Shown here: one piece after another, positions 1-16,713 of the stretch
Numbering within the stretch: the stretch's first letter is position 1
How the letters are laid out: every line of letters begins with the position of its first letter
NCBI GenBank assembly: GCA_001803565.1
Contig: MHDQ01000174.1
Coordinates: forward strand, 1-24,007
Source of the DNA: Nitrospinae bacterium RIFCSPLOWO2_12_FULL_45_22
GTDB lineage: Bacteria; 2-12-FULL-45-22
DNA length: 24,007 nucleotides
Reading direction: 5' to 3'
The notes under the pieces: generated by a model
What the model saw: only the letters and a program-made list of their open reading frames with translations
Told to the model about the DNA's origin: nothing
The model's database searches: none
Program-made: the position numbers and the translations under genes

Positions 1-2321
1 TGCCAGTGCCTAACCAGCCGGGCAAGTCTGGTTATAAAAAGCCTCTTTCTTCGCAGCTTGTCTCCCGGAGAGCCAGGATTATCCGGGCCAAATTCCCCCA
101 GCACAAACCAATCAATGCCCAGGGCAGCCGGGACTTCTTTACTAATATAGAACCCTTCCTGCACAAGGCCCAGATAGCGAGCCTCTATAGCCGCCAGGGG
201 CAGGGCCGTATTAAAGTTCCGTACCAGCACGGCATGGGCCATCTTCCAGGCCCTTATTGCCCGGGAGTGTCGCCTAATACAACCCTTTATAAAGCCCGGC
301 AGGCCAGGGTAACGGTATCGCTTTATATAGATATTTTCTGGGCCTGAGCCAGTAGGTAAGGTTGTGTGAAAGAGGGTAGATTTTTTCGTTTCTTTCACTA
401 CTGTTAGATTTTCTAAATTATCAATCAGCGCTGGTAGTTCTTTCTCCATAGCCGCTGCCCGGCGGAGATATCCCCGGTAAGGGCCATTATTAAAGACCAT
501 AAAATCGTTATTGCTCCTCAGACAGCGTTTTTCTCGGCGGCTATAGAGTCTGAGAGAGGCTTTCCGGCTCCGGGCTTCAATCAGCCGGGCATATCGGGCT
601 ATATTATTTTCTATTCTCGTTATCTCCCGGCAATATTCTTTAAAAAACCGGAAACGGGCTGAAGCCCGGAGCCGCTGAGAAAAGAATAAGTTTAATTGCA
701 CCAGGTTATTTATCCTTTTATTCAGGCCTAAATCCTTCCCCTTTATCTTTACCTGATGGAGATCCATAAGGGATAACTGGTATGGCCCTTCAATGCCGTT
801 ACCTTTGACAAGGAAATTACCGGCATGAAAATCCGTATGATAGACCCCTTGCTGGTGGACTTTCTTGACCAATTGGGCCAGTTGGTTGGTTAGGGTCATC
901 TCTCGCCTAAAGCCTATCTTTCGGCCCTCTCGTAATGAGAGATTATCCAGAGAGAAGGCATCCTTTATCTCTTCCGTTATTAAGTAATTTTCTTGCAATA
1001 TCCTCCCCTTATACCGCTCGCCGATAGCTAAAGGGTTTATAGTAGGGATGCCTTTCTCTTTTAGCCTCAAGGCCGTCCCTGCCTCTCTTTGGGCCTTAGA
1101 AGGGCGAAAAAGATACTTGAACTGATCGCTCCACCCTGGTAATTTATATATCTTGAGATAGATACTCATAGGGTCGTTTCGGGTAGGGAGTTCTCCCTGG
1201 ACAATGCGCCGTATACGCCTGTCCTGTACAGTTAAACCGCTCTTCCCTGCTAGCAAGGCGTTTAGTGCCTCATAGGTTTCCTTAGTAAAGGCCGGCAATA
1301 GGTCTTGACGAATAAACCATTTTGTCCCGGCAAGCTGGATAGGTGTAGGAGAGAACCCTGGTGGCACTCCTTTGATGTCCGTCGGTCTTAAACCCATGCT
1401 GGCTGGGCATAAACGCAAATGCCAGAACAGAACGTACCAATATATGGCAGCCTTTTCCCGATAGTAGGGGGACCTGAATAAAGTAAGAAGATTGAGCAGG
1501 CTAGTAAATAGAGTGCTTAATATCAGTCTGAGGGATAACATAATAACCAGTAAGGTTAATCGGTGCCATCCCCGATGCTTCCTGAAGAAGAGATAGCGGG
1601 AGCGATAGTATTCTACCCGGGCCTTAGCCAGTTGTATTTGGGCGCTCTGGCCTTGAAGATGGACGATCTGGGCCGCAGGTAGATGATAGACCTTCCAGCC
1701 GGCCCTCCGGAGTCGAAAACACCAATCGGTCTCTTCCAGAAAAAAGAAATAGTCTTCATCCAATGGTCCTACTTGTTTAATCGCCTTGCTCCGTACCAGC
1801 ATGCAAGCCCCTATAACAGACTCTACCGCCAACGGCTCATCATAAGCCTGGTATTTACTGGGATACTTAGAGGGGAAAAGGTATCGCAGCAAACTCTTAT
1901 TAGTCAACTCAGTCAGCAGGTTAGGAAAATTATCAAAGGAGTTTTGTTTGGAACCAGCAGCATGAAGGAGTTGTCCACCAACTAAACCTACCTCCGGTCT
2001 CTTTTCCAAGAAGTCGAGGAGATAAGAAACCACTCCAGGCTTAAAGATTATATCGGTATTAAGGATAAGGACATAGGGACTGCTTGCCACCAGCAAAGCA
2101 GCATTACAGCCCCCAGCAAACCCTTTATTAACCGTATTCCTGATCAGATTAACCTGGGGAAACAACCGCCCTACTGCCTCGATGCTGCCGTCCTGAGAGG
2201 CATTATCCACTACCCAGACCTCCATATCTATTCCCTCTGTAGCTGCATAGAGGGACTGGAGGCAGTTCAAGAGGAGCTGCCGAGTATTGTAATTAACAAT
2301 AATAACTGATAATAAAGGCAT
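1..2321 (-). CDS. GT2 glycosyltransferase fused to two LPS-kinase domains (3' end cut)
   Basis: The reading frame is open from an ATG at 2321 to the left edge (773 codons seen, no stop), so the C-terminus is missing. Residues 1 to about 250 are a family 2 glycosyltransferase of the rhamnosyltransferase type: N-terminal LSVIIVNYNT, VVDNASQDGS, the metal-binding NTD at 88-90 and an EETDWCFRLRRAG motif. A hydrophobic stretch follows at about 255-300. Residues about 310-600 form a KdkA/WaaP-like lipopolysaccharide kinase with Lys390, the catalytic loop HTDFHAGN (495-502) and metal-binding Asp520 in MDLHQ. From about 645 a second kinase of the same family begins: IYIKRYRYPG with Lys667, then an RAW...PLA..EAR pattern. 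The likely role is adding a sugar and phosphorylating a lipid A or core glycan at the inner membrane; the acceptor is inferred. No clear ribosome-binding site precedes the ATG. Confidence 0.85.
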   Translation of the reverse strand, partial: MPLLSVIIVNYNTRQLLLNCLQSLYAATEGIDMEVWVVDNASQDGSIEAVGRLFPQVNLIRNTVNKGFAGGCNAALLVASSPYVLILNTDIIFKPGVVSYLLDFLEKRPEVGLVGGQLLHAAGSKQNSFDNFPNLLTELTNKSLLRYLFPSKYPSKYQAYDEPLAVESVIGACMLVRSKAIKQVGPLDEDYFFFLEETDWCFRLRRAGWKVYHLPAAQIVHLQGQSAQIQLAKARVEYYRSRYLFFRKHRGWHRLTLLVIMLSLRLILSTLFTSLLNLLTLFRSPYYREKAAIYWYVLFWHLRLCPASMGLRPTDIKGVPPGFSPTPIQLAGTKWFIRQDLLPAFTKETYEALNALLAGKSGLTVQDRRIRRIVQGELPTRNDPMSIYLKIYKLPGWSDQFKYLFRPSKAQREAGTALRLKEKGIPTINPLAIGERYKGRILQENYLITEEIKDAFSLDNLSLREGRKIGFRREMTLTNQLAQLVKKVHQQGVYHTDFHAGNFLVKGNGIEGPYQLSLMDLHQVKIKGKDLGLNKRINNLVQLNLFFSQRLRASARFRFFKEYCREITRIENNIARYARLIEARSRKASLRLYSRREKRCLRSNNDFMVFNNGPYRGYLRRAAAMEKELPALIDNLENLTVVKETKKSTLFHTTLPTGSGPENIYIKRYRYPGLPGFIKGCIRRHSRAIRAWKMAHAVLVRNFNTALPLAAIEARYLGLVQEGFYISKEVPAALGIDWFVLGEFGPDNPGSPGDKLRRKRLFITRLARLVRHW

Positions 2322-2368
2322 CAAATTGTAATTACTCGGATTTCCACGGAACAATTTTTGCCATCATT

Positions 2369-2545: not shown

Positions 2546-3259
2546 TCAGTTTCTCAGTATGCGGTATATGAGCCATTTGTCCCCGCCTTCCTCTCTCCTG
2601 GCTTGCATCTTGCCTGGTATCAAGGCCAACTCGTCAGGGTGCATAGCCTGGAGGAAGGCGGTTAAGCCGGGACCTAAATCCCTGGTATCCACAATAAGGT
2701 AGTGGGCCCCGGTCTTTCTGGCTAACTGTATAATTGCCGAATAATTGTAGTCTTTCAATGATATGGTTTTACCCCGGGCATAAAAGGCAAAGCGGGGATC
2801 GCGGCTTATAATAATGGGGTGCTTAATCCCGTTTTCCCTGAGCCAGAGCCCAATCTCCTTCCTCAAATCCTGATTTCCTCTAAGGGATGCCAGGGACTTG
2901 GGCAGCATGATAACCATAGCCAAAATAACCAGTAGCCCTGCCCATCTATTTGCTGACCATAAGGAGCTTTTCTTACTAAGTCGGGCTGCCAGCTCCCATA
3001 GTCCCAACCCACACCATAACAGCACCAGGATAACTATAGGCAAAAAATAACGCTTGCTGGAATAATGATGGGTAAGGAAAAAGAGCCAGAGCAAGAAAAA
3101 ATATGGGATAGTGTAGGCGGCAAGATAAAGCTCTCCTTTATGGTATTTAGGGAGGGTGTGGCGCCTGACCAGACCAAAGAGAAAAAAGATGATCAGGAAG
3201 GGATGGGCAGCAGAAAAAAATTTCAGGATCAGCTTATAAAAGGCTATAAAGACAGTCAT
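2546..3259 (-). CDS. C-terminal half of a split family 39-type glycosyltransferase
   Basis: This 237-residue frame has about four membrane segments: around IIFFLFGLV, a strongly hydrophobic stretch near 47-62, YFLPIVILVLLWCGLGL and WAGLLVILAMVIML. A soluble tail of about 100 residues follows. There is no N-terminal catalytic Asp loop of its own. Its start overlaps the stop of the preceding frame in an ATGA arrangement, and the two products together (253 + 237 = 490 residues) match the usual length of one ArnT/PMT-like GT-C enzyme. One extra A in the AAAA run at the junction would fuse the frames. It may be a broken gene, a translationally coupled two-part enzyme or a sequencing indel. Confidence 0.7.
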   Translation of the reverse strand: MTVFIAFYKLILKFFSAAHPFLIIFFLFGLVRRHTLPKYHKGELYLAAYTIPYFFLLWLFFLTHHYSSKRYFLPIVILVLLWCGLGLWELAARLSKKSSLWSANRWAGLLVILAMVIMLPKSLASLRGNQDLRKEIGLWLRENGIKHPIIISRDPRFAFYARGKTISLKDYNYSAIIQLARKTGAHYLIVDTRDLGPGLTAFLQAMHPDELALIPGKMQARREEGGDKWLIYRILRN

Positions 3260-4017
3260 TTTGTCTCGATCTCAGGGGCTTGAGTGAGGCCAATAAGGGT
3301 TTTTAAACTCTTCTTTTTGGTCAGCATCCAGGAGCCAGTTTCTAGCTTGAGATGGAGCAGATAAGGGAATGCTAGCAGGAAAAAGGCCAGGGCTATAGAA
3401 GTAACAGCCACTAATCTTTGTCTATAATCTCTTCTAAAATGCCTTGCCCCAGCCACCATCACCCAAAGGACCAGGATAAATAGCGTGCCAAGGCCCTCCG
3501 GCCGGGTCAGATATGCCAAAGAGCCGGCCACAGAAGCCAGGAAATAGTAGCGATATTTTTTGCTGATAAGGGCTTGCCAGCCAAGGGCTATTGCCAGCAC
3601 ATAAAAAAAGATATAGGTAGCTTCAGAAAGTACTTCGGCTGAGGTGCGTACCAGATAAGGCTGGCAGGCAAACAGCAGACTGGCAATGACTGCCGTAGGG
3701 AAATTAAATATCTTAAGGCCCAGAAAATAAACGGGTATTAGGGTTAAGGAGCCAAGAACTACTGAGACAAACTGACCAGCCCTTTCAGGTTCAGAGAATA
3801 ACGGGTATATCGGTGCAATAAGCAAAGGGTAGAGGGGATGAAAATCTTCGGCTATGCCTTTATGAAACTCACCATGGCTGAAGTGTTCCGCCATCTCCAG
3901 GTATTTTATCCCATCCTTAGCGATCATACCAGCATTATGTGCCGCTGTTATACGAATAACCAGGGCAATAAGAATCAGGATGATCAACGCTAATGACTTG
4001 TATTTTATATCTTTCAA
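3256..4017 (-). CDS. N-terminal half of a split family 39-type (PMT/ArnT-like) glycosyltransferase
   Basis: The 253-residue product starts at TTG (4017), with an AAGGGA ribosome-binding site about 6 nt upstream. It has an N-terminal membrane anchor (about 8-27), then a periplasmic loop with the acidic GT-C motif KDGIKYLEMAEHF (Asp35, the likely catalytic base), followed by several more hydrophobic segments. Enzymes of this fold move a sugar from a polyprenyl phosphate donor to lipid or protein on the outer face of the inner membrane. The frame ends at 3256, where the next frame begins with a 4-bp overlap. Gene neighbours are envelope-glycan genes, so a lipid- or polysaccharide-modifying role is more likely than protein mannosylation. 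Confidence 0.7.
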   Translation of the reverse strand: MKDIKYKSLALIILILIALVIRITAAHNAGMIAKDGIKYLEMAEHFSHGEFHKGIAEDFHPLYPLLIAPIYPLFSEPERAGQFVSVVLGSLTLIPVYFLGLKIFNFPTAVIASLLFACQPYLVRTSAEVLSEATYIFFYVLAIALGWQALISKKYRYYFLASVAGSLAYLTRPEGLGTLFILVLWVMVAGARHFRRDYRQRLVAVTSIALAFFLLAFPYLLHLKLETGSWMLTKKKSLKTLIGLTQAPEIETK

Positions 4018-4284: not shown

Positions 4285-6690
4285 TTATCCCCCTTTTCTT
4301 ACACTTTTGTATTTATCATGTTTTATCCTGTAAATCCTGTCAAAAAAATGAAAATTCCTATACGATCTAGTTAAGGAATTCCGGCCTAGGCGAGGCCTAA
4401 TCAAAAAGAGTAAGGCTGGAACCAAGCTTACGGCGGCCAAGGCATTGATAAACATCATTAGAGATAGCAGTATAGCCATTTCTGCCTGAAAGCGGATACT
4501 GGATAGAAAATACCAAAATATAATCGCGCCTATCAAGCAAAGGGCCGTGAAAGTAACGGCCATTCCGCTGGTAGTAATAGCTTTTTGGATGGCGGTTGTG
4601 AGATCCTGTCCCATTTTTTTGTATTCCTGCCTTGCTCTATCCATAATATACACAGCATAATCAACTCCCACACCGATTCCTAAAGCTGTCACGGGAAGGG
4701 TATTTATATTCATGCCAATATCAGCTAGTACCATATAAGCTGTACAGATGAAAGTAGCCATAACCAGAGGGGCGATTATCAATAAAGTAGCAGTGATAGA
4801 AGAATAGCTGATAAAGATGCATAAAAATACCATGGCCAGCACCAGGATCAAATTCCATCGGTTAGATTTAGCTATCATTTCATTAGTACCAGCTAAGACC
4901 CCTATTATACCTCCGGCTAATTTAAAACTGATATCGTTAGTGGGGTAGCTTTTGATAAAATCCTGGGCCTGGCTTATAACTTTTTTAATAGTATCAGGCC
5001 GGGTATCTTTGTAATACATGGTTATTTTAGCCTCTTTGGCCTTCATATCTATATAAGAAGAAAGGACTCGGGGCACGGTTGATCCACATTCGTATAAAAA
5101 AAGGAGCCCGCCTACTTCGGATAAAGTACCAGGCACCATAGCCCATTTAGGATCGTCGTAATGCCATATTTTATTAACAGCCTTTACTAAGGTTGCTATA
5201 CTTATTCCTCCTCCAGCGCTCGGGTTTTTTAATAAATGAGCCTGAAATTTTTCCATAATAGAAAGAACCCTCGGTTCTTTCATAATAAAGGGATGATCGC
5301 CCGATAGGATTATATGGAGTTGATTTGCTCCAATAAAGTTTTGGTTAAGCCAGGCGGAAGCTTTATTATACTCCGAGTCAGGATATAGCAAGGATGAGCC
5401 AGGCCGATTGTCTCCGATGATGAGTTTGGGGCTTATGGCTGAAGATAGTCCCAGCAAAACCATTGCTATTATCAATATTAACCAACATCCTCGGCGGTTA
5501 GTAGAGAAAGCTGCCATATGCTTCAGATAAGCTGCTATAGGTTTGACCTTGTACCGGGTTCTTTTTTTAGGGGCTGGGAGTAAGGATATTAATAAGGGTG
5601 TTAAGATCAAAACGGAAACAATGATGCTTAGCGCCCAAAAGGCGCAAAAAAAAGCTAATTTTCTCATCACTGGTATAGAGGCTACAGCCATAATCAATAT
5701 CCCACCAGCATCGGTAATTACTCCCACCGTGCCGGGGAGGAAAAGCTCCCCCATAGCTAGAATAGCTGAACTTTCCTTATCGCCGGTAATTTCGTATTCT
5801 TCCAAAAAACGTTCCGTTACTTGGACAGAATGGCTGATACAGCGGGCCGTAATAATTAGAGGAATTACCAAGGTAAGGGGATCGAAATTATAACCCATCA
5901 TGCTAGCAAAACCTAATCCCCAGAGACAACTCACTGTCGCTCCCACTAATGGGACGACAACACCCACTGACCTCCTAAAATAGAAGGTTAGAAGTAATGC
6001 CAGAACCAGCATAGTAATCATCAAGATAAATAAGGTTTGGGGATAGTAATGATCAACCCAGCCATAAAGCATGGGCTGTCCCGTAATGTATAATCGGGTG
6101 TTTTTATCCTCCACCTGTTTTTGTAATTCTTTCAGTCTAGCAAAGAGGTCTCCATAATCTACTCTGCCTTCCAAAAAGCCCGCCGTGATTAAGGCAGCTT
6201 TCCCATCAAAAGAAATAAGCCTGCCATAAACTGCTTCATTACTAAAACACTGGGTTCTCAATCTTGCTAACTCCATAGGGGTTTCAGGGATTTTATCAGG
6301 CAGTAATAGCTCAGAATATACCATACCTATTAAGGTTGTCCTTACACTTCGGGTATTGATGTGGGCTAATGAATCAACCTGATAATGATCTATACCGGGA
6401 AGGAAGTCCATTTGCTCGGTAAGGTATTTGATCTTGGACAATGTTGTAGGGTTAAAGATATCTCCAGTTTTAACCTCCAGGGCTACGGTTAATAAATTTG
6501 CTCCACCAAATTTGTCCTTGACTTCCTGATGTACCTTAATAAAGGGGTGATTTGCCGGGAGCAAGTCTTCAAATTTAGAATAGAGGGAAAGTTTTAGCAG
6601 ATGGTAAGAGAAAAAGATGGTGGTTAAAAAGATAACCAGTAAGGTTAGTAACCGATGTTTCATAATCCATAGGGCAAATCTTAAGCTCAT
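4285..6690 (-). CDS. RND superfamily exporter with two MMPL domains
   Basis: The 801-residue protein has the two-fold RND plan. After a first membrane helix (about 13-33) comes a large periplasmic loop (KFEDLLPANHPFIKV onwards), a five-helix bundle containing FDPLTLVIPLIITARCISHS, a second N-terminal-type helix, a second periplasmic loop and a second bundle with the family motif GIGVGVDYAVYIMDR. Members are proton-driven exporters of lipids or other hydrophobic compounds, comparable to MmpL and HpnN. It has no adjacent adaptor or outer-membrane partner here. Lying between sugar transferases, it may move an envelope lipid; that is inference. The last 34 residues, after LLFLIRPR, are basic and hydrophilic and appear to be encoded by an intergenic repeat that the frame reads through. 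The start follows a weak upstream GAGGAG. Confidence 0.85.
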   Translation of the reverse strand: MSLRFALWIMKHRLLTLLVIFLTTIFFSYHLLKLSLYSKFEDLLPANHPFIKVHQEVKDKFGGANLLTVALEVKTGDIFNPTTLSKIKYLTEQMDFLPGIDHYQVDSLAHINTRSVRTTLIGMVYSELLLPDKIPETPMELARLRTQCFSNEAVYGRLISFDGKAALITAGFLEGRVDYGDLFARLKELQKQVEDKNTRLYITGQPMLYGWVDHYYPQTLFILMITMLVLALLLTFYFRRSVGVVVPLVGATVSCLWGLGFASMMGYNFDPLTLVIPLIITARCISHSVQVTERFLEEYEITGDKESSAILAMGELFLPGTVGVITDAGGILIMAVASIPVMRKLAFFCAFWALSIIVSVLILTPLLISLLPAPKKRTRYKVKPIAAYLKHMAAFSTNRRGCWLILIIAMVLLGLSSAISPKLIIGDNRPGSSLLYPDSEYNKASAWLNQNFIGANQLHIILSGDHPFIMKEPRVLSIMEKFQAHLLKNPSAGGGISIATLVKAVNKIWHYDDPKWAMVPGTLSEVGGLLFLYECGSTVPRVLSSYIDMKAKEAKITMYYKDTRPDTIKKVISQAQDFIKSYPTNDISFKLAGGIIGVLAGTNEMIAKSNRWNLILVLAMVFLCIFISYSSITATLLIIAPLVMATFICTAYMVLADIGMNINTLPVTALGIGVGVDYAVYIMDRARQEYKKMGQDLTTAIQKAITTSGMAVTFTALCLIGAIIFWYFLSSIRFQAEMAILLSLMMFINALAAVSLVPALLFLIRPRLGRNSLTRSYRNFHFFDRIYRIKHDKYKSVRKGG
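4350..4373. repeat. Copy A of a 24-bp dispersed repeat, inside the exporter 3' end
   Basis: This stretch matches 20060-20083 at 21 of 24 positions (shared core GAAAATTCCTAT, then ATCT and GTTA). Here it is translated as part of the exporter C-terminal tail. The copy at 20060 instead provides the stop codon of another gene. Confidence 0.6.
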
Positions 6691-6853: not shown

Positions 6854-7867
6854 TCAGCCTAAATATGCCTTTTCTAAGATCGTATTAAACAAGGGGCTGA
6901 GGGCCTGATAAGAGAAAGAGGTTTCTATTTTTTCCCGGGCGGCCCGGCCCATCTGTAGCCGCAGTCCTGGATTTTCGATTAAGAGAGTCAGCTTCTCTAA
7001 CCACTCCTGAGGTTGCGACACTAAGAAGCCTTCTATTCCATTGGCTACTATGTCCCTATTAGCCTCGGTAACAGTGGCTACTACAGGCATACCTAGCGCC
7101 ATATATTTCAGGAGTTTAAAGCCACATTTACCCCTTGACCATAGATCATCACCCAGGGGCATTAGGCCAATATCAAAACTCCCTATCTCTTCTACCTCTT
7201 CTTCTTCCCGCCAATACTTATGGATTGCCCTTACTCCTGGTAGCTCAGGAAATTTCTGGCTGATGATCTTTAGCGCCACCTGGGGGTATTTTTGGGTTAT
7301 TTTTTCCAACACATCTCCCAGCCTCTGCAAATAGGGAATGTTGCCGGGACTGCCATACCAGCCTATAATAATCTGATCTCCCGGGGCTCTAGTAGCTCGA
7401 TAATTGTATCTATCAGTATCTACCGGGGTAGGTAAGGGATAAACGTTCTTATTGAATCTAAGGGCTTCTTGCTGCAAGAAAGAGTTGCCCGCAATAATTG
7501 TCTGACAATACACCATCATCCGCTGGAAATTTTTATAACTATTCCTAACCTTAAGGGATAGTGCTTTTTTGGTATTAAGGGAGGGGTCCAGAGCGGGGTA
7601 CATGATGGCATCGTCAAAATCAAATACAATCCGGGGATTTAAGGCCCTCAGTAAGCTTATTTCCCAGATGTGCAAGAGCTTTTTTTGGATAAAGATGCCC
7701 TGGTAGGCCATGGCCTTCGTTAAAATCCATAGCCGCTTCAAGGGTGTTTTAGGCAGATAAGCCAAATCCCACTGCCAACGGCAAGGATCAAGTCGTTTCA
7801 GGTGTTCTAACACCCTCAGCTTTGTACTAGGCAGATCTTTTCCCGCTAACAAAAAGAGTATCTTCAT
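6854..7867 (-). CDS. Family 4-type (GT-B) glycosyltransferase
   Basis: The 337-residue product has the C-terminal Rossmann half of a GT-B retaining transferase: IIIGWYGSPGN (about 166-176) starts the domain, and the donor-binding region is KCGFKLLKYMALGMPVV (247-263) followed by EANRDIV. The N-terminal half contains FDFDDA (83-88), frequent in bacterial family 4 enzymes that act on lipid-linked or surface sugars. It has no membrane segments and should be cytoplasmic or peripheral. It starts 10 bp after the methyltransferase stop, so the two are probably co-transcribed. The sugar and acceptor cannot be told from the sequence. Confidence 0.85.
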   Translation of the reverse strand: MKILFLLAGKDLPSTKLRVLEHLKRLDPCRWQWDLAYLPKTPLKRLWILTKAMAYQGIFIQKKLLHIWEISLLRALNPRIVFDFDDAIMYPALDPSLNTKKALSLKVRNSYKNFQRMMVYCQTIIAGNSFLQQEALRFNKNVYPLPTPVDTDRYNYRATRAPGDQIIIGWYGSPGNIPYLQRLGDVLEKITQKYPQVALKIISQKFPELPGVRAIHKYWREEEEVEEIGSFDIGLMPLGDDLWSRGKCGFKLLKYMALGMPVVATVTEANRDIVANGIEGFLVSQPQEWLEKLTLLIENPGLRLQMGRAAREKIETSFSYQALSPLFNTILEKAYLG

Positions 7868-7877
7868 GTCCGTTATT

Positions 7878-8531
7878 CTAAAGAGGTTTCCGGCCCACTA
7901 TCAGGATTGAGCGGGCAAAATCTATCCCCAGGTATCTGTGTAATGGAGCGGCCAGGTATAGCCTGAATAATCGTGGGATGAAGGGGGCATTATATACCCT
8001 ATAAATCCCTTCTATCTGATACCCTAGAGAGAGTATAAGACCACCCAGCTCATCGTAGCGATATGGGGTTTTATGGGAAATATCCCAGAAGCGGGTAGGG
8101 TGATAGAGATTAGGAGTAGATAGGATCAGCCAACCCCCTTTATTTAACAAAAGAAAGACCCGGCCCAGCAGTCCAAGCCCCTCCTCCAGGGGCAGATGTT
8201 CTATAACTTCTAATAAGAGAATGATGTTAAAGGTCTCCTTAATCTCTTCTAAACAATAATAGTCCTGATAATTAGCCCGGTCAGTATCCATACTCCGGTA
8301 AAAAATATCAGTGGATAATTGCTTTAGCTTAACTTCCCGGCTGCGGTCATAGGCCCCTATATCCAGGATATTCTCACCATTTTTGACTTTTTGGGCTATT
8401 AGTCCATGGACATTTTTGATGACTTTCAGCCGCCAAAAATTTGGGAATTGTTTTCTTATAGCAAGTCTTTCCTTCTGCAACTCACTCCAGTTCATATAAT
8501 TCCCCACGCCAGCTATACTTAACCTGGTCAT
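7878..8531 (-). CDS. Class I SAM-dependent methyltransferase
   Basis: The 217-residue protein has the Rossmann-type methyltransferase motifs: motif I NILDIGAYDRS (54-64), an acidic residue ending strand 2 in SMDTD, and LLLEVIEHLP (105-114), as in UbiG-like and polysaccharide-linked methyltransferases. STPN follows in the later strand. It likely methylates a sugar or lipid intermediate in the same envelope pathway as the glycosyltransferase 10 bp downstream. Two starts are credible: ATG at 8531 with GGAAAG about 9 nt upstream, or ATG at 8495 (residue 13) with GGGGA about 6 nt upstream. Confidence 0.8.
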   Translation of the reverse strand: MTRLSIAGVGNYMNWSELQKERLAIRKQFPNFWRLKVIKNVHGLIAQKVKNGENILDIGAYDRSREVKLKQLSTDIFYRSMDTDRANYQDYYCLEEIKETFNIILLLEVIEHLPLEEGLGLLGRVFLLLNKGGWLILSTPNLYHPTRFWDISHKTPYRYDELGGLILSLGYQIEGIYRVYNAPFIPRLFRLYLAAPLHRYLGIDFARSILIVGRKPL

Positions 8532-8753: not shown

Positions 8754-8782
8754 TTGACATAAGCACAGTAACTGACTATAAT
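8754..8782 (+). promoter_or_regulatory. Perfect-consensus sigma-70 promoter of the toxin-antitoxin pair
   Basis: TTGACA (8754-8759) and TATAAT (8777-8782) are both exact consensus hexamers with an optimal 17-bp spacer. The transcript should begin near 8789, only about 4 nt before the toxin ATG at 8793. So strong a promoter implies tight repression, for which the overlapping palindrome is the obvious site. Confidence 0.85.
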
Positions 8783-8789
8783 TATAGTC
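8774..8789. promoter_or_regulatory. 16-bp palindromic operator over the -10 box
   Basis: GACTATAATTATAGTC is a perfect 16-bp inverted repeat containing the whole TATAAT box and reaching the predicted transcription start. Phd/YefM-type antitoxins bind short palindromes at their own promoter, so this is the likely autoregulatory site of the pair. The site is seen; the binding is inferred. Confidence 0.7.
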
Positions 8790-8792
8790 ATA

Positions 8793-9116
8793 ATGGTGCG
8801 ACGGTCAAAATTTCTCCTGATTTATGCTCCAGTAACGAAATTACACCTCAAGGCAATTGAGCGAAAGTATTATTCACTTATTCGCACCACTATCGAAGAA
8901 GAGTTGCGGTTTGATCCAGATGTTGAAACCAAGAATCGAAAGCCATTGAAACGGCACGTAACATTCGAAGTAGAATGGGAGCTTCGCCTTGGCCCAAACA
9001 ATAGATTTAGAGTGTTCTACGACATAGATATGGATTTTCATAGGGCTCACATATTGGCGATTGGAGTAAAGGAGAATGATCATTTATTTATTGGCGGAAA
9101 GGAGGTTAAGGTATGA
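8793..9116 (+). CDS. RelE/ParE-family toxin
   Basis: The 107-residue protein has the small RelE/ParE toxin pattern: a first strand FLLIYAP, helix residues KLHLKAIERKYYSLIRTTIEEELRFD, a conserved NRKPLK turn and a closing sheet NRFRVFYDID. Toxins of this superfamily either cut mRNA in the ribosome or poison gyrase; this sequence does not decide which. The gene precedes its antitoxin, the reverse of the usual relBE or phd-doc order, and overlaps it by 4 bp (ATGA). There is no ribosome-binding site, and the predicted transcript starts only a few bases before the ATG, so translation is probably leaderless and weak. It is on the opposite strand to every other gene here, which suggests separate acquisition. 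Confidence 0.8.
   Translation: MVRRSKFLLIYAPVTKLHLKAIERKYYSLIRTTIEEELRFDPDVETKNRKPLKRHVTFEVEWELRLGPNNRFRVFYDIDMDFHRAHILAIGVKENDHLFIGGKEVKV
9099..9105 (+). promoter_or_regulatory. Strong ribosome-binding site of the antitoxin
   Basis: AAGGAGG inside the toxin 3' end lies 7 nt before the antitoxin ATG at 9113. The contrast with the toxin, which has none, should favour antitoxin over toxin synthesis from one message. Confidence 0.75.
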
Positions 9117-9379
9117 AAATTGCATCTGTAGCAGATGTGAAAGCTCATTTCAGCGCCTTTTTAAAAGAAAGTAAAGAGGGCCCCGTGGTAGTCACCCTAA
9201 ATGGCCGTCCAACAGCAGTATTGCTTTCAGTTGAAGACGAAGATGAAATAGAGCGTTTGTCATTAGCTTATTCGCCCAAGTTTCAGAAAATATTAAATTC
9301 AGCCAGACGGCAGATTCGTGCTGGTAGCGGCATCCGACATGAGGATTTTTGGAGAGAAGTAGATGATGATGACAAATGA
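9113..9379 (+). CDS. Phd/YefM-family antitoxin
   Basis: The 88-residue protein begins with the Phd/YefM DNA-binding fold: IASVADVKAHFSAFLKE, then GPVVVTLNGRPTAVLLS, where the NGRP turn is diagnostic. The acidic C-terminal part (about 55-88, ending DFWREVDDDDK) would wrap and neutralise the toxin. Such antitoxins dimerise, repress their own promoter and are removed by Lon or Clp proteases. The lon gene is the next gene, convergent and 70 bp away. Translation is coupled to the toxin through the ATGA overlap and helped by a strong ribosome-binding site. Confidence 0.85.
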   Translation: MKIASVADVKAHFSAFLKESKEGPVVVTLNGRPTAVLLSVEDEDEIERLSLAYSPKFQKILNSARRQIRAGSGIRHEDFWREVDDDDK

Positions 9380-12817: not shown

Positions 12818-15049
12818 CTATCTCCCCTTCGTCTTCAGGGCCAGTATTATCTTTTCTGGAGTAATAGGCAGGCTATAAAGCCGTACGCCAATGGCCTGAT
12901 AAATGGCATTAGCGATAGCCGCAGCGGTAGGTATGTGGGGCGGCTCGCCTACACCACGGACACCGTAAGGATGCTGGGGGGAAGGTTCCTCAATAATAAT
13001 GGTCTCGATAGGAGGAAGGTCTATAGCTGTGGGCATTTTATAGTCAGCAAAATTAGGGTTGATGACTTCTCCCTGATTAAATTTCATCTGTTCGAATAGG
13101 GCAAATCCCATCCCCTGGGCTATTCCACCCTGGATCTGTCCTTCTACTAACCCGGGATTAAGGGCGAAACCAGCATCCTGAGCCCCTACCAGCCGTAAGA
13201 CCCTTACTTCACCGCTCTTGGGGTCAACTTCTACTTCGGCCCCCTGGGCTACAAAGGTTATAGTATTAGCTAAAGATTGATCACGGGCTCCACCCTTTAT
13301 CCAATCAGTATGCTGTTTTTTATGCCGGGCAGACAGCTCACCTATGGCCAGTTTCTGATCAGTATTTTGTCGGTTGAATATATGGCCATTATCTATTCCT
13401 AAGTCCTCTGGCCTGAGGTCTAATTCTTGTGCAGCTATTTCCAGCAATTTATCTTTGGCTTGCTGGCAGGCGATCCTGGTAGCATTGCTCATATTATACG
13501 CCAGCCAACTGCCACCGCTTGCCGGTGCTTCTATAGCCCTGCTAGTACTTTCGGTTCGTATCCGGACTTTTTCTAAAGGGACAGATAGCTCCTCAGCAGC
13601 TACCTGGGCTAATACCGTACTAGAACCCGTCAGGTCTACTGAACCGGTTATAATTTCTACATCACTATCCCGGGTAATCATTACCTCTATGCCACAGCCA
13701 ATGCCCATAGTGTTCCATTGACCACAAGCCAGCCCCTTACCACGGTTCCCATGTGGGGCAACCTTATCCCACTGGATTGCCTCTGCTACTCCCTTCAAGA
13801 CCCGCTCCAGGCTACAGCGATCTAGTTTTTCCCCAGCAAAGGTCATATCGCCATCCTGTAAGATATTTTTTAGCCGAAATTCTAATGGATTCATGCTCAA
13901 TTTCTCGGCTATCTCATCCATCTGTGACTCTATAGCAAAGGTAACTTGAGGAAAACCCGGGGCACGATAAGAGCCACAAGAGACCGTATTGGTATAGACA
14001 CAATAGCCCTCCAGCCGGGCATTTGGTATTCGATAGGGACCGCAGGCGGCTGAGGTAGAGCCCTGAGCGGTCAAGGGGCTCATGCCGGCATAGGCGCCAG
14101 AATCATATATCAGTCGGGCTTCGCGGGCTATGATCGTGCCCTCTTTCTTTACGCCGGTCTTGAGATAAATCTTAGAAGAAGAGCGGGGGTTAGAGTACTT
14201 AAACTCCTCTTCCCTGGTCATAGTTATCTTTACTGGCTGCTTTGCTTTCCTGGCTAATAATACTGCTACATGGGAGATAAGGGGTGGGAACTTACCGCCA
14301 AAACCCCCGCCAATCACGGATGGGATTACTTCTACCTGATCTTCTGGTATGCCCAGGGCCTGACAGAGGAGCATCCGGTGCATAAAGCTACCCTGAGTAG
14401 ATACCCAGAGGGTTACTTTACCGTTGGCATCTACTTTTGCCAGGGCAGAATGGGGCTCTAAATAGCCCTGGTGGACATTGGGTGTAGTAAAAATACCTTC
14501 AAAGATAAAATCGGCTTCCTGAAAGGCCCTCTCTACATCGCCCACCTTTGACCGGTAATAGAAGTTTATGTTCCCTCGGCCTCTGCCTGCCAGGGCTCCC
14601 TTATATTGCCCTAATTCTTCATGGATAATAACCGCTTCGGGCTTCATAGCCTCTTCTGGGTCAAATACGTCCGCTAATGGCTCATACTCGACTTGAATAA
14701 GGGCAAGGGCCTCTTCAACTATATCGTCTCGCTCCGCTGCTACAGCAGCTACCCGATCACCTTTATAGCGCACCTTATCCCGGGCAAAGATCCATTCATC
14801 AGAGATCAGCCAACCATAAGGCTTAGCTGGTGCATCAGCGGCAGTAACTACTGCCTTCACACCCGGTAGCTTTTCCGCTTTGCCGGTATCCAGGGATACT
14901 ATCCGGGCATGGGCATAAGGGCTGTAGAGGATCTTGCCGCATAACATACCTGGCCCATACTTATCATCGCCAAATAATGCCTTACCCGTGACCTTATCCC
15001 AGGCATCTACCCGCTTCACTATTTTGCCTAGAACCTTATAAGTACTCAT
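12818..15049 (-). CDS. Xanthine-dehydrogenase-family molybdopterin-binding subunit
   Basis: The 743-residue catalytic subunit has the family landmarks: GGGFGGK (247-253), a GSYRAPGFPQ motif (359-368) with Arg362 at the substrate-site position, and GVGEPP (699-704) with the essential Glu702 that activates the molybdenum-bound hydroxyl. It hydroxylates or dehydroxylates a carbon centre, passing electrons to the [2Fe-2S] and FAD subunits encoded just upstream. The active-site loop lacks the AYxCSFR signature of aerobic CO dehydrogenase, so that function is unlikely. The substrate (purine, N-heterocycle, aldehyde or aromatic thioester) cannot be fixed. The gene follows the iron-sulfur subunit across a 143-bp spacer containing a hairpin repeat, which may alter subunit ratios. 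Confidence 0.93.
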   Translation of the reverse strand: MSTYKVLGKIVKRVDAWDKVTGKALFGDDKYGPGMLCGKILYSPYAHARIVSLDTGKAEKLPGVKAVVTAADAPAKPYGWLISDEWIFARDKVRYKGDRVAAVAAERDDIVEEALALIQVEYEPLADVFDPEEAMKPEAVIIHEELGQYKGALAGRGRGNINFYYRSKVGDVERAFQEADFIFEGIFTTPNVHQGYLEPHSALAKVDANGKVTLWVSTQGSFMHRMLLCQALGIPEDQVEVIPSVIGGGFGGKFPPLISHVAVLLARKAKQPVKITMTREEEFKYSNPRSSSKIYLKTGVKKEGTIIAREARLIYDSGAYAGMSPLTAQGSTSAACGPYRIPNARLEGYCVYTNTVSCGSYRAPGFPQVTFAIESQMDEIAEKLSMNPLEFRLKNILQDGDMTFAGEKLDRCSLERVLKGVAEAIQWDKVAPHGNRGKGLACGQWNTMGIGCGIEVMITRDSDVEIITGSVDLTGSSTVLAQVAAEELSVPLEKVRIRTESTSRAIEAPASGGSWLAYNMSNATRIACQQAKDKLLEIAAQELDLRPEDLGIDNGHIFNRQNTDQKLAIGELSARHKKQHTDWIKGGARDQSLANTITFVAQGAEVEVDPKSGEVRVLRLVGAQDAGFALNPGLVEGQIQGGIAQGMGFALFEQMKFNQGEVINPNFADYKMPTAIDLPPIETIIIEEPSPQHPYGVRGVGEPPHIPTAAAIANAIYQAIGVRLYSLPITPEKIILALKTKGR

Positions 15050-15087
15050 ATTGTTTCTCTTTTTCCCAGATGCCCACAGATATTTTA

Positions 15088-15143
15088 GTGAGCAGTAAGC
15101 CGTGAGGAGTAAGAAGTTAACGGCTCACTGCTTACTCCTCACC
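15088..15143. repeat. Eight 7-bp repeats folding into a hairpin
   Basis: Heptamers in strict phase: GTGAGCA, GTAAGCC, GTGAGGA, GTAAGAA, GTTAACG, GCTCACT, GCTTACT, CCTCACC. The arm GTGAGGAGTAAG (15102-15113) is the perfect 12-bp complement of 15131-15142 around a 17-nt loop. It lies between the iron-sulfur and molybdopterin subunit genes. Confidence 0.8.
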
Positions 15144-15192
15144 CTATTTAATCTCCTGATAATCTGCGTTCATCTGCGGCCAAAATAGGGAA

Positions 15193-15660
15193 TTATGATC
15201 CGACAGACATTATCGCCTTGACGATTTTATCATAACCGGTACAACGGCAGAGATTGCCCGCAATAGCCATTCGTACCTCCTCTTCACCAGGCCTGGGACA
15301 GCTATCTAATAAAGCCTTGGCTGCTAATACCATTCCTGGAGTGCAAAAGCCGCATTGGATAGCCCCATGATCAATAAAGGCCTGCTGGATAGGATGGAGT
15401 TGGTCTCCTTCGGCTAGCCCTTCAATAGTAAGTATATTCTGGCCAGCTACTTCTACGACTAAGGTCAGGCAAGAATTAATGGCCTGGCCGTTGACCAATA
15501 GGGTACAAGCCCCACAATCGCCCTGGCCACAACCCTCTTTCGTGCCGGTAAGGCCCAGGTCTTCCCTGATTACCTCTAATAAAGTCTTATTGGCTTCTAC
15601 AGTAAAACTATATCGTTTCTGGTTAACCGTCAGAGTAATAGGGTATTTAGAAAATTCCAT
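15193..15660 (-). CDS. [2Fe-2S] subunit of the molybdenum hydroxylase
   Basis: The 155-residue protein carries two [2Fe-2S] clusters. The N-terminal plant-ferredoxin-like domain has Cys44, Cys49, Cys52 and Cys64 (EGCGQGDCGACT pattern). The C-terminal helical domain has Cys103, Cys106, Cys138 and Cys140 (QCGFCTPG and NLCRCTGY). It relays electrons between the molybdenum and FAD subunits. The frame stays open 27 codons further upstream to 15741, but those codons are the heptamer repeat. The family-like sequence begins at the ATG at 15660, preceded by an AGAGAAG stretch, so 15660 is taken as the start. Confidence 0.93.
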   Translation of the reverse strand: MEFSKYPITLTVNQKRYSFTVEANKTLLEVIREDLGLTGTKEGCGQGDCGACTLLVNGQAINSCLTLVVEVAGQNILTIEGLAEGDQLHPIQQAFIDHGAIQCGFCTPGMVLAAKALLDSCPRPGEEEVRMAIAGNLCRCTGYDKIVKAIMSVGS

Positions 15661-15700
15661 GCTCTTCTCTTGTAACCGTTCACCCGAGTGAGTTTTCTTA

Positions 15701-15833
15701 ACCACTAAGGCACAAAGACACCAAGGAAACGTAAAACGCAAAGCTAAAAGTGCAAAGCTGAGGAATAATTACCTTAGTTTTACACCTTGCATTTTAAGCT
15801 TTGAGCTTCTTAGTGGCTTAGTGCCTTGGTGGC
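15701..15833. repeat. Large inverted heptamer-repeat element
   Basis: The left half reads ACCACTA, AGGCACA, AAGACAC, CAAGGAA, ACGTAAA, ACGCAAA, GCTAAAA, GTGCAAA, GCTGAGG in exact 7-bp steps (15701-15763). The right half (15778-15833) reads roughly as its complement, again in sevens: TTTTACA, CCTTGCA, TTTTAAG, CTTTGAG, CTTCTTA, GTGGCTT, AGTGCCT, TGGTGGC. CACCAAGG (719-726 of the 15-kb block) pairs perfectly with 15824-15831. It separates the FAD and iron-sulfur subunit genes. Confidence 0.75.
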
Positions 15834-15846
15834 TGAATGATTACAT

Positions 15847-16713
15847 CTAGATTATCCTGGCAGCATGAGTGATGGCCCGGGCAGTTAAAACCCGTACTAT
15901 TTCCTGGCGATATTCGGCTGATCCCCTCAGGTCTGTTATCGGTTGAGCGTGGGCTGCAGCTATACTGGCTGCCTTCTCTATCTCCTCCGGAGCAATTATT
16001 TTGCCTTGGAGGCTATTCTCTGCCTCGACCACCCGTATAGGAGTAGGTGCAACCGCACCCAGAGCAATCCTTACCTCAGCACAAGTCCTTCTATCTGGTT
16101 TTAGGGCCATGAGGACTGCTACTCCCACGATAGCAATCTCCATGGCCCGCCGGATACCATGCTTCAAATATATGGCCTTACTCCTTTCAGGCATGCGTGG
16201 TACCTCTATCTCTTGTAGTATTTCACCATCCTTTAATATAGTCTGGTTAGGGGCACAGAAGAACTCTTCTAGTGGGATAAATTTTTTACCTTTTAGCCCC
16301 CGGACTACTGCCCTGGCATTAAGTACCAGTAGCGGGGGGGCAAGGTCTGCCGAAGGCACTGCATGACATAGATTGCCTCCTACGGTACCTTTGTTCCTTA
16401 TCTGTACCGAACCGATGGTTTGGGCAGCCTGGGCCAGTATAGGGTAATAGCCGAGGATCCATGGATTATGTAGCAGTTCACTATGGGTTACTAACGCCCT
16501 GATCCTCAAGCCTTTTTCAGGATCATATTCTATCCCTTTCAATCGTTTGATCTTTTTCAGATCAATCAAAAACTGTGGCTTAACCAGGTTTCGCTTCATC
16601 TGGATTAATAAGTCTGTACCACCGGCCAATAAGCGAGCTTGCCCCTGGGCTTCAGAGAGGAGGCGGCAGGCCTGATTCAAAGAAGTAGGTGCATAATAAG
16701 AGAAAGTAAGCAT
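15847..16713 (-). CDS. FAD-binding subunit of the molybdenum hydroxylase
   Basis: The 288-residue protein has the FAD pyrophosphate-binding loop LAGGTDLL (29-36) and the second FAD motif GTVGGNLCHAVPSADLAPP (109-127), followed by the CO-dehydrogenase-type C-terminal domain. It passes electrons from the iron-sulfur subunit to a soluble acceptor. At 288 residues it lacks the roughly 40-residue [4Fe-4S] insertion of 4-hydroxybenzoyl-CoA reductase beta subunits, which argues against that enzyme. The gene order FAD, iron-sulfur, molybdopterin matches the coxMSL-type order. It starts 49 bp after the HU gene. Confidence 0.92.
   Translation of the reverse strand: MLTFSYYAPTSLNQACRLLSEAQGQARLLAGGTDLLIQMKRNLVKPQFLIDLKKIKRLKGIEYDPEKGLRIRALVTHSELLHNPWILGYYPILAQAAQTIGSVQIRNKGTVGGNLCHAVPSADLAPPLLVLNARAVVRGLKGKKFIPLEEFFCAPNQTILKDGEILQEIEVPRMPERSKAIYLKHGIRRAMEIAIVGVAVLMALKPDRRTCAEVRIALGAVAPTPIRVVEAENSLQGKIIAPEEIEKAASIAAAHAQPITDLRGSAEYRQEIVRVLTARAITHAARII

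Follow-up and report, generated by a model that had tools for sequence, protein, structure and literature searches.

A GT2 glycosyltransferase and tandem LPS-kinase-like domains in one open frame of a Nitrospinae contig

Does one polypeptide join a GT2 glycosyltransferase to two consecutive kinases of the LPS type and, if it does, what would such a protein do? The question is raised by the left edge of a contig of Nitrospinae bacterium RIFCSPLOWO2_12_FULL_45_22 (GenBank assembly GCA_001803565.1, contig MHDQ01000174.1). We call the window the whole stretch of 24,007 nt that was analysed, whose start is base 1 of this draft contig (G000:C174).

The open frame and its domains

A sequence-only reading of the window had proposed a single frame with a GT2 domain, a complete kinase and the start of a second one. 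This was borne out by the open frame, by Pfam, by a profile of the second kinase and by a structural model, and the residues that it had named (K390, D497, N502, D520 and K667) were all correct. We hence consider the single frame GT2-kinase 1-kinase 2 (the kinases K1 and K2 from here on) as confirmed. Its coordinates are collected in Table 1, with those of the neighbouring genes.

Table 1. Features at the left edge of the window
Feature	Position	Strand	Remarks
GT2-K1-K2 (partial), one open frame	3..2321	-	773 aa from ATG 2321; 3' end cut by contig end
GT2 glycosyltransferase domain, residues 1-320	1362..2321	-	PF00535
Kinase 1, residues 326-609	495..1346	-	PF06293; all WaaP-type catalytic residues present
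Kinase 2, N-terminal half, residues 612-773	3..488	-	K667; catalytic loop past contig end
PMT-type (PF13231) integral-membrane glycosyltransferase, two frames	2546..4017	-	3256-4017 and 2546-3259, 4-base overlap
MMPL/RND-type transporter	4285..6690	-	In the same gene run; putative link to the kinase protein
GT4-like glycosyltransferase, conserved companion	6854..7867	-	Homologues in tandem-kinase clusters
SAM methyltransferase	7878..8531	-	Methyltransferases present in relatives' clusters too

An alternative TTG start at 2354 would give an open frame at 3..2354 (-) of 784 aa. At the other end, the contig stops at 'LARLVRHW', just short of the HxD..N catalytic loop of K2. With a relative's K2 protein as query, no other contig of the genome was found to hold the missing half, and neither a Kdo family search nor the terminal 24 bases matched another contig of the assembly; the continuation to the left of base 1 had no match among viral contigs. 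A chance open frame was ruled out because both halves of the protein are conserved, at about 22-54% identity.

In the GT2 domain, PF00535 is found at residues 5-184 with E 5.6e-23 (82.1 bits versus a gathering threshold of 23.3, hence reached). Most of the stand-alone GT2 proteins that were aligned with this domain, taken from related loci and in many cases from LPS-type clusters, are 44-54% identical to it. The domain shares the fold and the general motif pattern of the rhamnosyltransferase-type GT2 proteins of TIGR01556, but its score is far under the curated subfamily cut-off (49.7 versus 200.55 bits). GT2 homology fades near residue 320 and kinase homology picks up near residues 326-340; the linker between them (residues about 320-340) is in frame and holds no stop.

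For K1, PF06293 (Kdo/WaaP kinase) is found at residues 399-544 with E 1.9e-15 (57.3 bits versus a gathering threshold of 21.3, also reached), and the residue set is complete: the catalytic K390, the alpha-C E413, H495-x-D497, N502 at the metal-binding Asn/His position and D520-L-H. In P. aeruginosa WaaP the counterparts K51, E78, H161xD163 and D188LH have proved to be either essential or strongly required (PMC6147952). From its residues, K1 of the window looks active. WaaP (6DFL) is the best sequence match to the window kinase, and it is also the best solved relative (E 3.9e-15) of the AlphaFold2 model, which was run on the kinase region alone, with 17 relatives, and is confident (mean pLDDT 87.4); a tandem relative, L003, matches the fold of 6DFL with Z 20.8. 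WaaP/RfaP (PF06293) has in common with K1 the kinase fold and the Lys, alpha-C Glu, HxD and D-L-H motifs, but it is a one-domain protein (about 260 aa) in which His stands where K1 has Asn (HRDCYICH); K1, moreover, is part of a tandem and is fused to GT2. Neither curated kinase equivalog was reached: the score was 74.2 bits versus a cut-off of 170 for the RfaP/WaaP heptose(I) kinase (NF011703) and, in a partial match to K1, 30.3 versus 142 for the Kdo kinase KdkA (NF002475), which belongs to the same Kdo/WaaP superfamily. As the RfaP, KdkA and rhamnosyltransferase models were not reached, we give the protein no specific enzyme name.

The half of K2 present in the window shares 31.5% identity with K1 (E about 1e-6), and in the model it forms a kinase N-lobe that leads into the beginning of a C-lobe. 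It keeps K667 and has Ala at the position of the alpha-C Glu, as most other K2 domains do. Pfam misses this domain because it is truncated.

The tandem kinases and their relatives

Relatives were collected by a scan of genome contigs, which gave 51 loci, and by running a profile of the kinase pair against 386 genomes across bacteria. The premise of the sequence-only reading, that an LPS kinase as a rule stands alone, was not supported, as the tandem pair itself is widespread. The K1-K2 proteins are mostly of about 490-680 aa; they include a related group of ten from Planctomycetota (Brocadia and its close kin), and occur also in Scalindua, in Desulfobacterota, in deltaproteobacterial MAGs and in others. 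The pair usually has its own gene, which shares an LPS-type cluster with the GT2 gene: directly upstream of it in L003, L004, L007 and L018, a few genes away in the Brocadiales, and directly downstream, which is the fusion order, in L002, L019 and L048 (in some cases end to end). Kinase domains lay within about 6 kb of GT2 in 26 of the 49 loci found with the window protein, a count in which some of the remaining loci are cut by contig ends and for which the kinase part supplied half of the seed peptides. The proteins of Brocadiales and Desulfobacterota (e.g. L012, L003 and L018) share with the window the order of the two kinases and a nearby GT2 of the same kind, but theirs is a gene of its own, unfused to GT2.

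In a tree of the kinase domains most first domains stand apart from the second ones, the best split placing 32 first domains together with 3 second domains. Since the two groups are separate the duplication should be old, and the tandem kinase pair is, as judged from this tree, an ancient duplication. The window fits this family when scored with leave-one-out profiles, from which its own sequence was excluded: K1 gave 217 bits with the K1 profile versus 132 with the K2 profile, and K2 gave 101 bits with the K2 profile versus 62 with the K1 profile. The order is hence a K1-type and then a K2-type domain, either of them scoring highest with the profile of its own type, and the pair lies in a glycolipid cluster together with the homologous GT2.

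The first domains of the relatives have the Lys, the alpha-C Glu, HxD, the Asn and often D-L-H, as in WaaP. Their second domains keep HxDLKxxN and D-L-D, with the alpha-C Glu mostly replaced by Ala, Ser, Val or Thr; one such case is the second kinase domain at L003:5995-7710, in which the replaced Glu is the one that pairs with the ATP lysine, and which has an intact HxDLKxxN loop.

K1 has lost its catalytic Asp in some of the 34 tandem proteins. This residue is Glu in 11 of the 34 (the ten related Planctomycetota proteins and L033), so that the K1 of the Brocadiales differs at this position from that of the window, which has Asp497. It is Asn in one, the fused protein L055, whose K1 is without both the catalytic His and the catalytic Asp (its Lys is aligned as Gln, probably by a two-column misalignment). 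The catalytic Asp of K2 is lost in three of the 33 readable tandem proteins (L019, L023 and L126). By lineage, this makes about three losses in K1 and about three in K2; no tandem protein has lost both. As the loss strikes either K1 or K2 and never both, the two options that had been put forward, two phosphorylations or one active and one regulatory kinase, both appear, judging by sequence, to exist in the family, and the latter option gains support from the relatives with one domain affected.

A different WaaP-like tandem was also seen, at L028:2-1468, L043:2-1234 and L096:2952-4472, with YPDLYxKH in the first domain, HKDFYxGH in the second and, as in WaaP, His instead of Asn. In L096 (G228) it lies directly after another tandem kinase gene, which places four kinase domains in a row.

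Distribution and origin of the fusion

Only the fusion to GT2 is rare. Apart from the window, GT2-K1-K2 in one frame was found in only two genomes, G027 and G174, both of one small phylum of which they are the sole members in the compared set. The protein of G027 (L055) has 842 aa and is internal to its contig; that of G174 (L093) has at least 837 aa, the start of its GT2 being cut. Both have the same one-frame architecture as the window protein, but their GT2 domains sit in other parts of the GT2 tree, which suggests separate fusions. Precisely, the three fused proteins do not group: the window goes with the set L003/L004/L007/L044 with weak support (91/54), and L055 goes with a GT2 of Auribacterota (99/85). 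The starred branches of this tree, whose bootstrap had not settled, need at least two label changes; a single fusion common to all three genomes is therefore not favoured, and the GT2-kinase fusion probably arose repeatedly.

The same GT2 was seen in one frame with other partners. At L130:5082-7427 (G049) it is joined to a GT9 heptosyltransferase, in a frame that overlaps the start of the tandem kinase gene; G049 and G058 are each the sole representative of their phylum in the genome set. At L004:2335-4044 its partner is a SAM methyltransferase, which the close relative L003 encodes in a gene of its own immediately downstream, and low coverage of the L004 contig (8x) means that this fusion may be a sequencing error.

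We found no description of a GT2-LPS kinase fusion in the literature, in a search that reached few subscription papers. The window protein combines known enzyme families in an uncommon way, and this combination of domains is new.

Proposed function and its alternatives

We consider it fairly probable (roughly 0.6) that the protein is a fused enzyme that serves to assemble the core of LPS, or of an outer-membrane glycolipid closely related to it. The GT2 domain would add one core sugar at the cytoplasmic face of the inner membrane; K1 would then phosphorylate, using ATP, a hydroxyl of that sugar or of a neighbour; and K2 would phosphorylate a second site or act as a K1-dependent partner. The fusion would fix the stoichiometry and hand the product over, so that the newly added sugar would be phosphorylated before export. 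The most likely role, as we infer it, is to add a sugar to the LPS core and to phosphorylate it. Sugar transfer and phosphorylation on a core glycan had already been suggested from the sequence; with the coupling added, and given that the parts of this one-frame protein lie in LPS-core-type clusters, this stands as the best reading.

The clusters of relatives hold several companions, the heptosyltransferase being of family GT9. That of G027 has a lipid A acyltransferase and a heptosyltransferase, that of L009 a heptosyltransferase and an O-antigen ligase, that of L016 a heptosyltransferase and that of L003 a PfkB sugar kinase. The GT4-like gene of the window is 37% identical to a gene of the L003 cluster and 33% identical to one of the L009 cluster. 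Directly upstream of the fusion, the two PMT-type frames match a single L016 gene of 536 aa, one in its N-terminal and the other in its C-terminal part; in L016 this gene comes directly after the tandem kinase. The gene at 2546-4017 thus appears to be a split gene, a pseudogene or the product of an assembly frameshift. Farther into the window, a small two-gene unit at 8754-9379 (+) consists of a 107-aa frame and then a PhdYeFM-type antitoxin (9113-9379), with a perfect TTGACA-17-TATAAT promoter match just upstream, and the large, 2Fe-2S and FAD-binding subunits of a molybdenum hydroxylase (xanthine dehydrogenase-type) are encoded at 12818-16713 (-).

The glycan acted on could be another one of the envelope, such as an exopolysaccharide, or a glycolipid or protein glycan made by way of PMT and MMPL. 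The neighbours in the window, GT4-like, PMT-type and MMPL, would suit this, the GT4-like gene weakly matches the GT4 model of the GPMC system, and neither a GT9 heptosyltransferase nor a Kdo transferase nor an O-antigen ligase is found in the 24 kb of the window. We hold it unlikely, however, as the clusters in which relatives carry homologous companions also have genes for GT9, a lipid A acyltransferase and an O-antigen ligase, and the window genome encodes LpxC. Far less likely is an artefact in which an indel of the draft contig joined two separate genes. The genes are indeed separate in most relatives, and end to end in the same order in some (L002, L019 and L048), as the sequence-only reading had envisaged for such a case, and, with the PMT gene split, the contig may hold a frame error at some point. 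At the GT2-K1 junction, however, the linker is open in frame, inspection found no ATGA-type overlap and no in-frame start with a ribosome-binding site at the usual distance before it, and GC by codon position runs on without an abrupt change. A clean junction, together with the presence of this architecture in two other genomes (in G027 inside a contig), makes an assembly fusion unlikely.

A rather unlikely arrangement, yet one that the family itself brings up, is that one kinase domain is inactive and regulates or scaffolds the other, with only one position phosphorylated. The losses of the catalytic Asp described above speak for it, as do the K2 domains mostly without the alpha-C Glu; in WaaP, losing this residue increases the sensitivity to EDTA about 128-fold (PMC6147952). 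The K1 of the window is intact, however, many lineages, the fused protein of G174 included, keep both catalytic Asps, and a change from Asp to Glu is no proof of inactivity. As a tentative and somewhat doubtful extension, tandem LPS kinases may be the bacterial sugar-kinase counterpart of pseudokinase-kinase pairs, with one domain repeatedly dead and gating or scaffolding the live one; in the fusions, phosphorylation would be coupled to the GT2 step and the core sugar phosphorylated as it is added.

The fusion predicts that GT2 and the kinase pair act on the same or on adjacent sugars, and it also gives a lead on function for the tandem kinases of anammox and sulphate-reducing bacteria. The evolutionary story is a modest one, of likely repeated fusion and of complementary loss of catalytic residues. 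With catalytic residues lost from one domain or the other across the family, possible pseudokinases can be put to the test in the phosphorylation of the LPS core, which is essential in P. aeruginosa.
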